Source of the DNA: Methanoculleus marisnigri JR1
Lineage (GTDB): Archaea; Halobacteriota; Methanomicrobia; Methanomicrobiales; Methanoculleaceae
Direction: 5' to 3'
NCBI RefSeq assembly: GCF_000015825.1
Contig: NC_009051.1
Coordinates: forward strand, 738,695-802,694
DNA: 64,000 bases
Below the pieces are notes generated by a model. It was not told the origin of the DNA. It saw nothing but the letters and a program-made list of their open reading frames with translations, and made no database searches. The first letter of the stretch is position 1; each line of letters opens with the position of its first letter. Below, one piece after another: positions 6,039-59,001 of the stretch. The position numbers and the translations under genes were made by a program.

Positions 6039-6138
6039 TTGGACAGTAGGTGCTGCCCAGCCGCGTGGTACTTGCACTCCTGCGCTTGAAGACCTTTGGT
6101 CGTATCTCGTAACTGACAGCCCTTCGATTAACTGGCAT

Positions 6139-6252
6139 GGATTTCGAGGGGTATCGCGTCTGGGGAGGGGTTTCAGGGGAGGGGGGAGACCCCCCTCCCC
6201 TGTCCCCACCCCCCCGTGGCGATACTCCCACGGTCCACTACATTGGGATTTT
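6139..6252 (+). repeat. Dispersed GC-rich repeat, copy A (inverted core)
   Basis: The left end GGATTTCGAGGGGTATCGC and the right end GGCGATACTCCCACGGTCCA, followed by a GGG-T5 tail, match in the same orientation the ends of two other elements at 47946-48105 and 58172-58360. The G/C-rich core at 6158-6219 is the reverse complement of the core of the 47946 copy. Homology to that copy also extends to the left (GTGGTACTTGC near 6065). The element is non-coding and lies between the ferritin-like promoter and the end of thrS. Confidence 0.8.
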
Positions 6253-24618: not shown

Positions 24619-24815
24619 GGTTGGTACTTGTTTGGCTTACCGCGTTAAAAAGGGGTCGTGGCCTACGGGAGGACGCCTGTGAGTTAACCGCCGTGTCTAC
24701 CCGTTTTCGGCCGTGCTACGAACAGTGCTGTTTTCCCGGCCGCTTTGGGGGCCCGACTACCGTTCGTGTCCTCCGGGGAGCGGTGCAGGGCTCCCTGCGG
24801 TTTCGGGGAGGTAAA

Positions 24816-24882
24816 CCTTCCGGTTCCGGAAGATGACCCTTCCGGTTCCGGAAGATGACCCTTCCGGTTCCGAAAGGTAAAA
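24816..24882 (+). repeat. Array of three 22-bp repeats upstream of the PAS-HTH regulator
   Basis: Three copies of a 22-bp unit (CCTTCCGGTTCCGGAAGATGA, with starts near 24816, 24838 and 24860) lie in tandem; the third is diverged and ends in the palindrome GGTAAAATTACC. Each unit holds the near-palindrome TTCCGGTTCCGGAA. The 22-bp period places the units on about the same face of the helix, as for a multi-site operator. They lie about 85 bp before the regulator gene at 24967. The remaining parts of the 24619-24966 gap show no gene. Confidence 0.65.
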
Positions 24883-42999: not shown

Positions 43000-43657
43000 T
43001 TATACAAGTTCGAACTCCTTGGTGAGGTTGCGCCCGTACCATATCCGGTACTTTCCGGGGGTAAGGGGGTCGTCGTGAATCCGAATCTCATATGGGTGTA
43101 CAGGACTTCCGCTCGCCTCCGCAGTATCCCACCAGTCTGTAGTGTTCCATCGCACCCGTTCCTCCGTCCAGCTGTATTTGAGATCTCCGGCTGCCCTTTC
43201 CTGAGCTGAGGTTCGATAGAGCGTCCAGTTTTGTCCCGGATTGAGGTAGCACCTTGCACATGGAGTACACCCGGCATCGCCGATGATCTCCCATGTGCCT
43301 ATATTGTTCCCCGGCGTGCCCCCGGATGCGTTCGTGACCCACTTATCGATCCGCCACGGGGACGGGTTGCTGAATTCCACCTGTTCATCGCCGCAGTTGA
43401 CGATGCCGAACTCCACCACATCCCCGATATGATAGACGTTCCTGTCCGTGAAGACGTAGACATCGTTCACCGGCTCCCCCGGGCAGACCCCGGACGGGCC
43501 GCAGAATCCCTCGGGTACGGTGCAGGTCTCGCAGGGTTCCGGTGTCGGTTCTGGCGTGATGTTTACGGCGGTATCGGCCAGTCCCAGGCACCCGGCCGGT
43601 TGCGAGGACGGCGATGAGGGCTATCGCCGCGATGCATGGGGGAATACGTGACTTCAT
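43000..43657 (-). pseudogene. Lipoprotein family copy 1, frameshifted at the lipobox
   Basis: The third gene of a tandem lipoprotein family. Start ATG at 43657 (MKSRIPPCIAAIALIAVLAT) matches copy 2, and from about 43590 down to 43000 the other frame matches the mature parts of copies 2 and 3 (VYVFTDRNVYHIGDVVEFGIVN, RWNTTDWWDTAE). The shift falls at 43593-43599, where CGGCCGG replaces the CGGCGG of copy 3: one extra C, inside the codons for the lipobox ATAGC. As read it gives an aborted peptide and an unexported remnant (43000-43470 from an internal ATG). It is a true decay event, a sequencing error, or a phase-variable site. Confidence 0.75.
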
Positions 43658-43751
43658 TGTGGTTTCTCCGGTTGCGTGCACATCCTTACCCCTCCTGGTG
43701 AACGGGACCCACCGGGCTGCGCGCTGGCACGGGGCCGCCTGCTCAACGCCA

Positions 43752-44378
43752 TCATACGAATGCGAACTCCTTGGTGAAGTTGAGGTTGCCCTCTACGTAA
43801 TGTATCCGGTCCCCCCGGGATATCCCGATCCAGGGGTACCGTATCCGGTATGTCCCGGGGGTGAGGGTGACGTTGTCGTTCATCGGCCGTACCTCTCTCC
43901 CCCACTCTGGAGTATTCCAGTCTGTAGTATTCCACCGCGTCGTCTCTGTCTCTCCGGGATGAAGAGGCCATGCCATTGTTTGAACAAATCCTGCAACATG
44001 GCCGACCATCTCCCACGTACCGTCGGTATCGTTGTCCGGTGTGCCCCTGGGTGCGTTTGTGATCCATCTTTCAACCTGCCACGGAGATGGGTGAGCAAAC
44101 ATTATGCGTTCATCGCCGCAGTTGACGATGCCGAACTCCACCACCTCCCCGATCCGGTAGACGTTCCTGTCCGTGAAGACATAGACGCCGTTCACCGGCT
44201 CCCCCGGGCAGACCGCGGGCGGGCCGCAGAATCCTTCGGGGACGGTGCAGGTCTCGCAGGGCTCCGGTGTCGGTTCCGGGGTGGCATTTACGGCAGTATC
44301 GGCCGGTCCCAGGCACCCGGCGCTGGCAAGGACGACGAGGATTATCGTTGCGATGCATGGGGGAATACGTGACTTCAT
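43752..44378 (-). CDS. Lipoprotein of a tandem paralogous family, copy 2
   Basis: A 208-residue exported lipoprotein. The signal peptide MKSRIPPCIATIILVVLASAGC ends with the lipobox Ala-Ser-Ala-Gly-Cys. A short Pro/Thr linker leads to a conserved four-Cys segment (CETC, FC, VC at spacing 2, 7 and 5), then a beta-rich domain (VYVFTDRNVYRIGEVVEFGIVN, PSPWQVERW, LTPGTYRIRYPW, ending FTKEFAFV). The domain looks like an Ig-like sandwich, as in Big_14/BsuPI-type domains, but this is only a resemblance. GGAG precedes the ATG. It lies 65 bp after copy 3 and 94 bp before copy 1. The function is unknown; the Cys set may bind metal or form disulfides. Confidence 0.8.
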   Translation of the reverse strand: MKSRIPPCIATIILVVLASAGCLGPADTAVNATPEPTPEPCETCTVPEGFCGPPAVCPGEPVNGVYVFTDRNVYRIGEVVEFGIVNCGDERIMFAHPSPWQVERWITNAPRGTPDNDTDGTWEMVGHVAGFVQTMAWPLHPGETETTRWNTTDWNTPEWGREVRPMNDNVTLTPGTYRIRYPWIGISRGDRIHYVEGNLNFTKEFAFV

Positions 44379-44443
44379 TGTGGTTTCTCCAGTTGTGTGC
44401 ACATCCTTGTGCCTCCGGGGGCCGGAGTTATCCGCTTCTCCCA

Positions 44444-45094
44444 TCACACGAACTCGAACTCCTTGGACGCGTTGTTATACGCGTTGTTATCGTACCATAC
44501 CTTGTCGTACCATACCCGGTATATCCCGGGAGCAAGAGGGTCGTCGCTGATCTGATATGAGGACCCATCACTCCTCATCCGATATTGAAACGGTACTACG
44601 TGGTCTCCTCTCCTCTTTGCGGTCTCCCACCAGTCCGTAGTGTTCCACTGCATCGTCCAGTTCCCCCCAGGATTGAGGTACATCGTCTCGCCTGTACTAA
44701 ACCACCCGTCGACGCCGATCGTCTCCCACATGCCACCGGTACAATTCCCCACCACCCAGTAACCTACCAGATAAGTGAACCCGGACGCGTTCGTGACCCA
44801 TCCCTGAATCACCCACGGAAATGGGCTAAACGCCTTTCGTTCATCGCCGCAGTTGACGATGCCGAACTCCACCACCTCTCCGATCCGGTAGATGTTTTTG
44901 TCTGTGAAGACGTAGACACCGTTCACCGGTTCCCCCGGGCAGACCGCGGGCGGGCCGCAGAATCCCTCGGGGACGGTGCAGGTCTCGCAAGGCTCCGGTG
45001 TGGCGTTTACGGGCGGGCTGGCTGGTTCGAGGCACCCGGCGGTTGCGAGGACGGCGATGAGAACCACAACCTGGATGCACGATCCGGCGTACAT
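44444..45094 (-). CDS. Lipoprotein of a tandem paralogous family, copy 3 (first gene)
   Basis: A 216-residue lipoprotein, first in the transcription order. The signal peptide (MYAGSCIQVVVLIAVLATAGC) ends in the lipobox Ala-Thr-Ala-Gly-Cys. The CETC...FC...VC segment and the following VYVFTDKNIYRIGEVVEFGIVN match copy 2 almost exactly, while the later region (WVTNASGFTYLVGYWVVGN, NNAYNNASKEFEFV) has diverged, so the N-terminal half is under stronger constraint or was recently converted. The promoter at 45104-45134 places transcription start at the ATG, probably leaderless. Ig-like beta domain by resemblance; no known partner. Confidence 0.82.
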   Translation of the reverse strand: MYAGSCIQVVVLIAVLATAGCLEPASPPVNATPEPCETCTVPEGFCGPPAVCPGEPVNGVYVFTDKNIYRIGEVVEFGIVNCGDERKAFSPFPWVIQGWVTNASGFTYLVGYWVVGNCTGGMWETIGVDGWFSTGETMYLNPGGNWTMQWNTTDWWETAKRRGDHVVPFQYRMRSDGSSYQISDDPLAPGIYRVWYDKVWYDNNAYNNASKEFEFV

Positions 45095-47823: not shown

Positions 47824-47945
47824 GGCCGAATGCCCTCAGTCCGGCAGATTCACCGCAACCTTGCTAATATCATAGGGTTTTTCCGGGGACGTTATCGGCA
47901 TGCGGAATCGCCGGTGGTACTTGCTACCTGCTATACCCCATTTAC

Positions 47946-48105
47946 GGATTTCGAGGGGGTATCGCCATGGGGGGGTGGGGACAAAGGGGAGTGCGAGCGC
48001 AGCGAGCATGAGAAACTCGAAGAGTTTCGAGGGGGGTCTCCCCCCTCCCCTGAAACCCCTCCCCCAGACGCGATAGCCACCACGGTCCAGTTGATCGGGT
48101 TTTTA
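47946..48105 (+). repeat. Dispersed GC-rich repeat, copy B
   Basis: Full copy with left end GGATTTCGAGGGGGTATCGC, a G-rich arm, an insert containing GCGAGCGCAGCGAGC and the hairpin pair AACTCGAAGAGTT, a C-rich arm, and right end GCGATAGCCACCACGGTCCA followed by GGG-T5. Compared with copy A it has the core the other way round. It fills most of the 420-bp gap between two convergent genes (47812 and 48233), which otherwise holds no gene. Confidence 0.8.
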
Positions 48106-52516: not shown

Positions 52517-52589
52517 GGGCCCGTAGCATAGCTGGTGGTGCACCCGGCTGATAACCGGGAGGTCATGCGTTCGAATCGCATCGGGCCCA
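52517..52589 (+). tRNA. tRNA-Ile (GAT)
   Basis: A clean cloverleaf: acceptor GGGCCCG (52517-52523) pairs with CGGGCCC (52582-52588), discriminator A at 52589, T-arm ATGCG/CGCAT around TTCGAAT, and anticodon stem CCCGG/CCGGG around loop CTGATAA with anticodon GAT (52550-52552). No intron, CCA not encoded. Confidence 0.96.
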
Positions 52590-52613
52590 TCGTTTCTCAT
52601 ATTATCTCGTTTT

Positions 52614-52686
52614 CAGGAGTTGTTTGAACAGGTAGTGCACCCGGCAGATCACCGGGAGGTCGTGCGTTCGAATCTCGGTTTCCTAC
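52614..52686 (+). pseudogene. Degenerate tRNA-Ile copy
   Basis: Between 52631 and 52674, 40 of 44 bases match tRNA-Ile(GAT), including the CCCGG/CCGGG anticodon stem. The anticodon loop is CAGATCA, with U33 changed to A, and the T-stem no longer pairs (GTGCG against CTCGG). The would-be acceptor (CAGGAGT against TTTCCTA) keeps only about five weak pairs. It is therefore likely non-functional: a decayed duplicate or the scar of an integrative element. The rest of the gap to 52815 shows no gene. Confidence 0.65.
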
Positions 52687-57573: not shown

Positions 57574-58026
57574 ATGGATAAGAACCAGAAGACCGTTCTG
57601 GTGGTGGGTGGCCTCATTGCGCTCGCGCTGTTCTTCATCGAGCCTTTTTTCGGCCTCATAGCGCTGGTGCTCATGATCGCTATCCTGATGAGCCTCCATA
57701 TCATGGGAGACACGGGGAACTACCCGCTCGTCACCGTGGATCTCTCGGAGGATGCGCGGGAGATCATCGTCACCAATACGGGGACCGCGAAGGCGCAGAG
57801 GATCCATGTCGCCCTCGTCCCGCTCAACATCGAGTTCGAAGTCGCCTCGCTCGACCCTGACGAGGAATCCGGGTTCAACCTGCCGTCGATGGTCTCGGAG
57901 GCAAAAGCGGTCGTCACCTACGAAAACACCGAGGGACAGCAGTTCCAGCGCTCGTATCCGCTCACGGCGCTCGGGGCCGGGCGCGACCTCACCGAACCGC
58001 TCATTCCCATCTTCGGACGGCGGTGA
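57574..58026 (+). CDS. Small membrane-anchored protein, unknown
   Basis: A 150-residue protein with two closely spaced N-terminal membrane helices (residues 7-21 and 24-45: VLVVGGLIALALFF, FFGLIALVLMIAILMSL), then a soluble beta-rich domain (VDLSEDAREIIVTNTGTAKAQRIHVALV) that looks like a small Ig-like or CARDB-like sandwich; NTGTAKA is a typical CARDB turn. No known family is certain. A TATA box CTTATAATT (about 57542-57550) is near 26 bp before the ATG, so the mRNA is probably leaderless. It is divergent from serS and followed by repeat copy C. Confidence 0.75.
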   Translation: MDKNQKTVLVVGGLIALALFFIEPFFGLIALVLMIAILMSLHIMGDTGNYPLVTVDLSEDAREIIVTNTGTAKAQRIHVALVPLNIEFEVASLDPDEESGFNLPSMVSEAKAVVTYENTEGQQFQRSYPLTALGAGRDLTEPLIPIFGRR

Positions 58027-58171
58027 AGGGTTAGGGGCGGGGGAAGGCAGCGTATTGATAACGGTGGACTGCCTCTGCCGGTCGCCCCACTATATCCTGC
58101 GGGTGCCAAAGCCTGCCGAAGCCTCGGGGTGTCTCGCCGATTGCTCATAGGGACACCACGAACCCGTGCAC

Positions 58172-58360
58172 GGATTTCCATTGGATATCGCCACGGGGGG
58201 TGGGGACAATGGGGAGTGCGACCGAAGGGAGCATGAGAAGAACGAAGTTCTTCGAGGGGGGCGCACCCCCCTTCGCACCTCCGGTGCTCAAGCTCGCTTC
58301 GCTCGCACTCCCCGTCAGCCCCTCCTCGCACCCACCACGGTCCACTGCACCGGGCTTTTA
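58172..58360 (+). repeat. Dispersed GC-rich repeat, copy C
   Basis: Left end GGATTTCCATTGGATATCGC, then CACGGGGGGTGGGGACAA as in copy B, an insert with GGGAGCATGAGAAGAACGAA and hairpins GAAC/GTTC, and right end CCCACCACGGTCCA, followed by GGG-CTTTTA. The internal insert differs from copy B, with a long GC-rich stretch (GCTTCGCTCGCAC). It occupies the gap between convergent genes (58026 and 58477), which otherwise holds no gene. Confidence 0.78.
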
Positions 58361-58463
58361 ATGAGTCCTGTCTGTCCGTCTATTGCAGCACGCATGCAGC
58401 GATCAAATCCCCCCAGGGAGGCCCGCGAAACCCGGCACCCCTTGATATCCGGGGGCGCTTTCC

Positions 58464-58470
58464 AAAAAAA
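58464..58470 (-). terminator. T7 tract after the gene at 58477
   Basis: Seven T residues on the minus strand begin 6 bases after the stop codon. Confidence 0.55.
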
Positions 58471-58476
58471 TGTTTT

Positions 58477-59001
58477 TCAGGACCCGAGATACTCGAGCGT
58501 CCGCGCGAGCGCGGCCGTCAGCTCCTCGTCCTTCTGCGCGTACTCGTAGAGCGCCCGGTAGAGGATGAAGACGAGCTCGTAGCCGTAGACCTCGAACGCC
58601 TCCTCCGGCGCGAGCGGCGCGAGGTATGAGTCCGTCCGGATATCGGTGTTGGTGTACATCAGTTCATGGAAGGCCCCGTCTTCGTCGAGAACACAGATCT
58701 GCGCATCGACGGGCTTTGTCGGGTCGTCGGGGCGGTAGGGGAGCGGGTCGCCTTTCCCGAGAACGATCATCTTCTTCTCGTAGAACTCCTGGTCGTAGAG
58801 ATCCCCCGACGCTTCCCTCTTTGCGCGCCGGAGCATCTCGAGCCCGATCTGCTTCACGACCGGCGCCGTATCGGCGGCCATCCGCGCAAGAAGGGCACCC
58901 ATGCTGCCCCGGAGTTCCGAGGCCGATTCTTCCTTCTTCGCCTGCAGTTCCTCAAGGGTTTCGAGGAGGCGGGCGTATCCCTCTTCGATGATCGGATCCA
59001 T
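58477..59001 (-). CDS. Hypothetical protein, conserved-looking
   Basis: A 174-residue acidic, mostly helical soluble protein. The first 70 residues (EEGYARLLETLEELQAKKEES) can form a coiled coil, the centre (KKMIVLGKGDPLPYRPDDP, AQICVLDEDGAFHELMYTN) is beta-rich, and the end (EEAFEVYGYELVFILYRALYEYAQKDEELTAAL) is helical. No family is recognised. It lies 50 bp after the zinc ABC permease gene on the same strand and before a T7 tract, so it may be the last gene of that operon, although a separate role is equally possible. Confidence 0.7.
   Translation of the reverse strand: MDPIIEEGYARLLETLEELQAKKEESASELRGSMGALLARMAADTAPVVKQIGLEMLRRAKREASGDLYDQEFYEKKMIVLGKGDPLPYRPDDPTKPVDAQICVLDEDGAFHELMYTNTDIRTDSYLAPLAPEEAFEVYGYELVFILYRALYEYAQKDEELTAALARTLEYLGS

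Follow-up and report, generated by a model that had tools for sequence, protein, structure and literature searches.

The genome of Methanoculleus marisnigri JR1 carries about 70 intergenic hairpin repeats. In each, distinct ends (L and R) enclose a core that can face either way and whose two arms, alpha and beta, also differ from each other. Core swapping, rather than the flipping of a switch in place, is probably responsible for the inverted cores. This hairpin family with flippable cores is so far unreported. It is not described in the passages found of the genome paper (PMC3035220) or of the comparative paper (PMC2686161), and a literature search found no MITE papers naming the genus.

The window, meaning the whole stretch of DNA that was analysed, comprises 64,000 nucleotides and corresponds to bases 738695-802694 of a single 2,478,101-bp contig. 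Copies A, B, and C of the repeat lie within it and have the following parts:

6136..6151, + strand: L end of copy A, CATGGATTTCGAGGGG (direct reading; L-end family patterns)
6152..6224, + strand: core of copy A, with the alpha arm (TTTCA variant) on the L side and the beta arm on the R side (core from direct reading, core alignment, and hairpin fold)
6152-6157 and 6219-6224, + strand: TATCGC and GCGATA, respectively, bordering the core of copy A (direct reading)
6225..6252, + strand: R end of copy A, CCCACGGTCCA, plus an outer part containing a T tract (direct reading; R-end patterns)
47943..47959, + strand: L end of copy B, TACGGATTTCGAGGGGG (direct reading; L pattern)
47960..48075, + strand: core of copy B, opposite to A, with beta on the L side and alpha (TTTCA variant) on the R side
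within 47960..48075, + strand: nested module of copy B, between the beta arm and the apical palindrome
48076..48105, + strand: R end of copy B, CCACGGTCCA, plus an outer part containing a T tract (direct reading)
58169..58185, + strand: L end of copy C, CACGGATTTCCATTGGA (direct reading; L pattern)
58186..58334, + strand: core of copy C, with beta on the L side as in B, nested modules, and no right GCGATA box
58335..58359, + strand: R end of copy C, CCACGGTCCA, and its outer part

The original prediction held that copies A (6139-6252) and B (47946-48105) share co-oriented ends around a core that is inverted between them, and both parts are borne out. Direct reading gives the ends of A as GGATTTCGAGGGGTATCGC and GCGATACTCCCACGGTCCA and those of B, in the same orientation, as GGATTTCGAGGGGGTATCGC and GCGATAGCCACCACGGTCCA. 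When the core of A is reverse-complemented, 72 of its 73 bases are identical to the core of B (alignment score 54.0), compared with 57 identities and a score of 20.8 when the two are co-oriented. The maximum score among 500 mononucleotide shuffles of A is 8.2, which rules out chance as the source of the inverted core. An independent repeat search finds a 36-nt inverted match, 100% complementary, between 6162-6197 and 48029-48064. The moderate co-oriented score arises because copy A alone is a 77% quasi-palindrome with 39-nt arms; the relative orientation of the two cores is still fixed by the asymmetric arms. What had been taken for an insert in B is one extra nested palindromic module. Copy C, at 58169-58359, had been overlooked, and its core is oriented as in B. 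Hairpin folding of A and B is more favourable than that of shuffled sequence (z of -3.8 and -3.2, respectively). The neighbours of copy A, two minus-strand genes, are ThrRS-like and ferritin-like by their translations; copies B and C each sit between convergent genes.

The window also contains repeats of other kinds. At 43316-45052 are three direct repeats of ~214 nt, spaced ~725-731 nt apart, the second and third being 91% and 75% identical to the first; they are apparently a tandem gene triplication. A short tandem array with a 22-nt unit containing CCTTCCGGTTCCGGAAG occupies 24793-24876. The tRNA-Ile gene at 52517-52589 has a 44-nt stretch that recurs at 91% identity 97 nt downstream (region 52517-52674). 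ARAGORN makes no tRNA call at this downstream stretch, which is possibly a partial tRNA copy.

Across the genome, copies were located by pattern and the stretches around the matches were then analysed. The L end is matched 61 times, the R end 45 times, and the alpha arm 50 times, and the merged matches form 71 clusters. The R pattern is present in 32 of 35 genomes of the genus. Copies outside the present genome (G000) were sampled mostly with this R-end pattern, which biases the end counts there, and figures for the pairing of ends are therefore quoted for G000.

A minimal copy is ~96-110 nt long. The L end has the consensus CACGG[A/C]TTTCNNNNGGATATCGC and the R end GGCGATANNCCCACGGTCCA. Conserved sequence reaches a few bases beyond L and ~16 bases beyond R, which closes in a T tract. 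L and R have only their inner part in common, a short inverted repeat around TATCGC followed outward by a partly shared CCC.GT.CA, and the remainder differs. The alpha arm reads GGGGNGGGGCTGACGGGGAG or a TT[T/G]CA variant, whereas the beta arm has a short form, GGTGGGGACAGGGGAG, and a long form, which adds a hairpin and a stretch of GTAGAGACAGGGGAG. The arms are separated by an apical palindrome made up of runs of G and C. Larger copies, up to ~500 nt, hold nested palindromic modules such as GAGCACCGAAGGTGCGA, and core size in the family ranges from 60 to over 400 nt around an exact shared box of 6-7 bp. The nested modules (e.g., GAGCACCGAAGGTGCGA and CTCGAAGACCTTCGGTCTTCTC) recur in cores and ends throughout the family (L028-L098), are gained and lost between orthologs, and resemble a second tier of very small hairpin repeats.

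No clean empty sites that would reveal a target duplication were found; repeat-free orthologs differ over larger stretches. No Rfam model matches near its gathering score, and weak matches to miRNA-precursor hairpins, in seven loci, fall far below it. The 20-nt R pattern occurs in five IMG/VR contigs, and these matches are taken as chance because no repeat surrounds the pattern in any of them.

The arrangement of ends and arms shows two frames, each fixed within itself. When the analysis is anchored on cores, 225 of 226 contain one alpha and one beta arm. Conversion of the core arm by arm, which predicts alpha-alpha and beta-beta cores, is rejected by their numbers in this set (1 and 0). Of the 53 cores in G000 with both ends identified, 48 are flanked by L and R, against ~26 predicted by random pairing; a minority of five have two L ends instead, and R-R is absent (these are core-anchored counts, a looser pattern having inflated the L-L class to 49). 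Within these frames alpha adjoins L in 22 copies of G000 and R in 26 (binomial P = 0.67). With L-R and alpha-beta both fixed and alpha beside either end, the two frames are joined in random register. The core does not always keep one orientation to the ends in the wider set either: among copies with both ends in eight genomes, 94 are B-like, 83 are A-like, and 11 are unclassified. The A/B pair is one example of a family-wide property.

Core orientation is nonetheless partly heritable. The beta subtype is associated with orientation, with ratios of 43:23 for the short form and 24:76 for the long form in a table that includes non-independent orthologs, and nearest-neighbour cores in this genome are co-oriented in 35 of 46 cases. 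These links to subtype and to the nearest neighbour indicate that flips are occasional and not continuous.

Cores and ends have separate histories. Among within-genome pairs whose cores are at least 0.85 alike (n = 57), 33 are co-oriented. Identity of the L ends is 0.697 in these similar-core pairs and 0.698 in random pairs, and that of the R ends is 0.758 and 0.747, the ends being only 23 and 29 nt long, which limits the resolution per pair. Cores of at least 100 nt give the same outcome, in that similar cores do not have more similar ends than random. Near-identical cores occur in both orientations within one genome (L062/L071 and L130/L145); in the latter pair, from G007, cores of 249 and 246 nt at unrelated loci are 94% identical and contain the same nested modules in opposite orientation. 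Since copies with similar cores do not share ends, the cores move from copy to copy without their ends.

Comparison of the same site in different species gives the converse picture. In same-site pairs of the same orientation the ends are 0.925 alike and the cores 0.641, and 16 of 48 such pairs combine ends at least 0.9 alike with cores below 0.7. The ortholog of copy A in G025 has the same site, orientation, and end type, with a different alpha subtype and added modules. Internal sequence is shared between copies independently of their flanks, as in a repeat family homogenised by gene conversion.

With strict flank matching on both sides, core orientation is opposite between species at four of ~40 comparable sites, the denominator being approximate because the 42 components include duplicate records. 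Most same-site orthologs retain their orientation, which is unlike a fast switch. One flip is at locus C, where G000 and MH98A differ from G025; it is taken from an earlier strict comparison, as the loosened pattern split this locus between components. Another separates L055 from L197, which share both unique flanks up to the repeat (left flank 110/110 identical). In the third, where the flanks match less well, L231 and L202 differ from L236, and in the fourth L389 in G003 differs from L068/L381/L390/L393. An early count of many flipped orthologs was discarded, having been inflated by repeats that share an intergenic region but differ in their immediate flanks. None of the four flips is a mere reversal of a near-identical core; content or arm subtype differs too. 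The arm subtype itself changed in two of the four, and this link between flip and subtype change is only suggestive (Fisher P = 0.07, four flips).

Other rearrangements are seen around copies B and C. Locus B shows L-R, R-L, and L-L arrangements across species, with partly shared flanks. Between G000 and G025 its right flank is shared and its core inverted, and it was rejected as a clean same-site inversion and left uncounted because the left flanks differ. At locus C (58026-58480; L362, L364), the metagenome-assembled contig L362 has the entire repeat with its flanks reversed between two genes. A small hairpin with the stem GGTGTCCC/GGGACACC adjoins the repeat there, and the orientation of its loop relative to the repeat is opposite to that in G025.

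The data show directly that the two orientations are near parity, that the L-R and alpha-beta pairings are fixed, that cores are decoupled from ends, and that flips occur at the same site; whole-core replacement fits this better than inversion in place. The account we favour, at somewhat better than even confidence, is that cassette-like cores are replaced from other copies and joined either way round, which scrambles their orientation. Over evolutionary time, the core would act as a cassette that is swapped for the core of another copy, most likely through ectopic recombination or gene conversion between copies. The resident L-R pair of ends would stay, and the incoming core could enter in either orientation because the same box, in inverted copies, flanks the core on each side. 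Recombination or repair at the hairpin would drive the exchange, perhaps started by hairpin cleavage, and the short box would decide the joint. The joints are placed at, or within ~5 nt of, the TATCGC/GCGATA boxes bordering the core; the 4-5 nt inside the box follow neither core nor end cleanly, which locates the joint only to near the box. Ectopic gene conversion is the simplest known process for such replacement. The polyploid euryarchaeon Haloferax volcanii carries out efficient gene conversion between its chromosome copies, according to PMC8223754, and PMC11276520 likewise describes efficient conversion between chromosome copies in a polyploid haloarchaeon. The comparisons caught no donor-recipient pair at one site within a species.

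The original prediction attributed the inverted core to inversion between the 6-bp TATCGC/GCGATA arms. The inverted relation is real, general, and present also at the same site between species, whereas simple inversion on these arms is not its best explanation. In-place inversion of the hairpin interior between short inverted boxes, by template switching at the replication fork or by cruciform processing, is an unlikely alternative, though it may contribute. It would account for the orientation differences at the four same-site orthologs, the copies do fold as hairpins with cores bordered by inverted boxes, and spacer inversion through template switching at short inverted repeats is an established process (PMC8604942). 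Inversion in place would, however, leave the same segment in both orientations at one site, and all four flips differ in content, two of them in arm subtype. Template switching also homogenises the arms (PMC8604942), but all save one of the 226 cores keep theirs unequal. Spacer inversions in the yeast study altered 2-5 bp flanked by arms of >9 bp (PMC8604942), against 6-7 bp for the exact box here, around a core of 60 to over 400 nt. As cores already move between ends, flipping in place is not needed.

Site-specific inversion or cassette exchange by a dedicated recombinase targeting the TATCGC-bordered hairpin is improbable. The defined borders, near-equal orientations, and fixed L-R pairing are what it would produce, but most same-site orthologs are stable in orientation, the exact shared box is just 6-7 bp, and the translations beside A, B, and C reveal no evident recombinase gene. 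A related and bolder proposal, in which a dedicated exchange process with a nuclease or recombinase of its own acts on this hairpin and shuffles cores genus-wide among ~70 docking sites in either orientation, would be a long shot. That the core is a separate small mobile element, inserting either way into L-R target repeats, is similarly improbable. It agrees with the separate histories of cores and ends and with one core-less L-R copy, TATCGCCACCCCAAGGCGATA in G011 (L394), but it predicts many such copies, none of which is found among loci up to L379, and the lone case may be a deletion. The ends also prolong the hairpin stem, which is not expected of an unrelated target. Least likely of all is that whole repeats of two fixed versions were inserted independently into the same intergenic regions, with neither exchange nor inversion of cores. 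Some apparent flips with different immediate flanks may be separate insertions, locus B differs between G000 and G025 in its left flank as well as its core orientation, and orientation is partly inherited together with core subtype. This explanation is largely refuted by the near-identical cores found both ways in one genome (L062/L071, L130/L145), by the shared unique flanks of L055/L197, and by ends that do not follow cores.

BOX elements, like the present repeats, are modular, being composed of boxA, boxB, and boxC. To our knowledge, neither random core polarity nor decoupling of core and ends has been described for them. The BOX elements of pneumococcus (PMC3049150) resemble the present family in being small interspersed repeats, there bacterial. 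REPINs, or REP doublets (PMC3116915), are likewise short, dispersed, extragenic, and present in many copies per genome, with inverted ends around a variable spacer that form a hairpin. In contrast to them, the present host is an archaeon, the ends are non-identical with their pairing kept, and the spacer-like core has a polarity of its own that is random with respect to the ends. Spacer inversion by template switching (PMC8604942) and the small hairpin-loop inversions of plastids (e.g., PMC6824564) also leave the sequence between inverted arms in both orientations. In this family, unlike these, the core is 60 to over 400 nt, the arms stay different, and content changes with orientation. Sponge mitochondria (PMC2800124) and Volvox organelles (PMC2670323) likewise have non-coding hairpin palindromes spread in intergenic DNA, as repetitive hairpin-forming elements in the former and palindromic repeats in the latter. 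The repeats here differ in belonging to a free-living archaeon and in combining unequal ends with cores that can be exchanged.

Small palindromic repeats are commonly regarded as single self-copying units, and in this family the ends and the core have separate histories. Differences in orientation between repeat copies need not imply inversion in place. The family offers a way to test whether hairpin DNA guides cassette exchange, and the histories of its cores are a natural record of archaeal recombination that can be read by comparing species.
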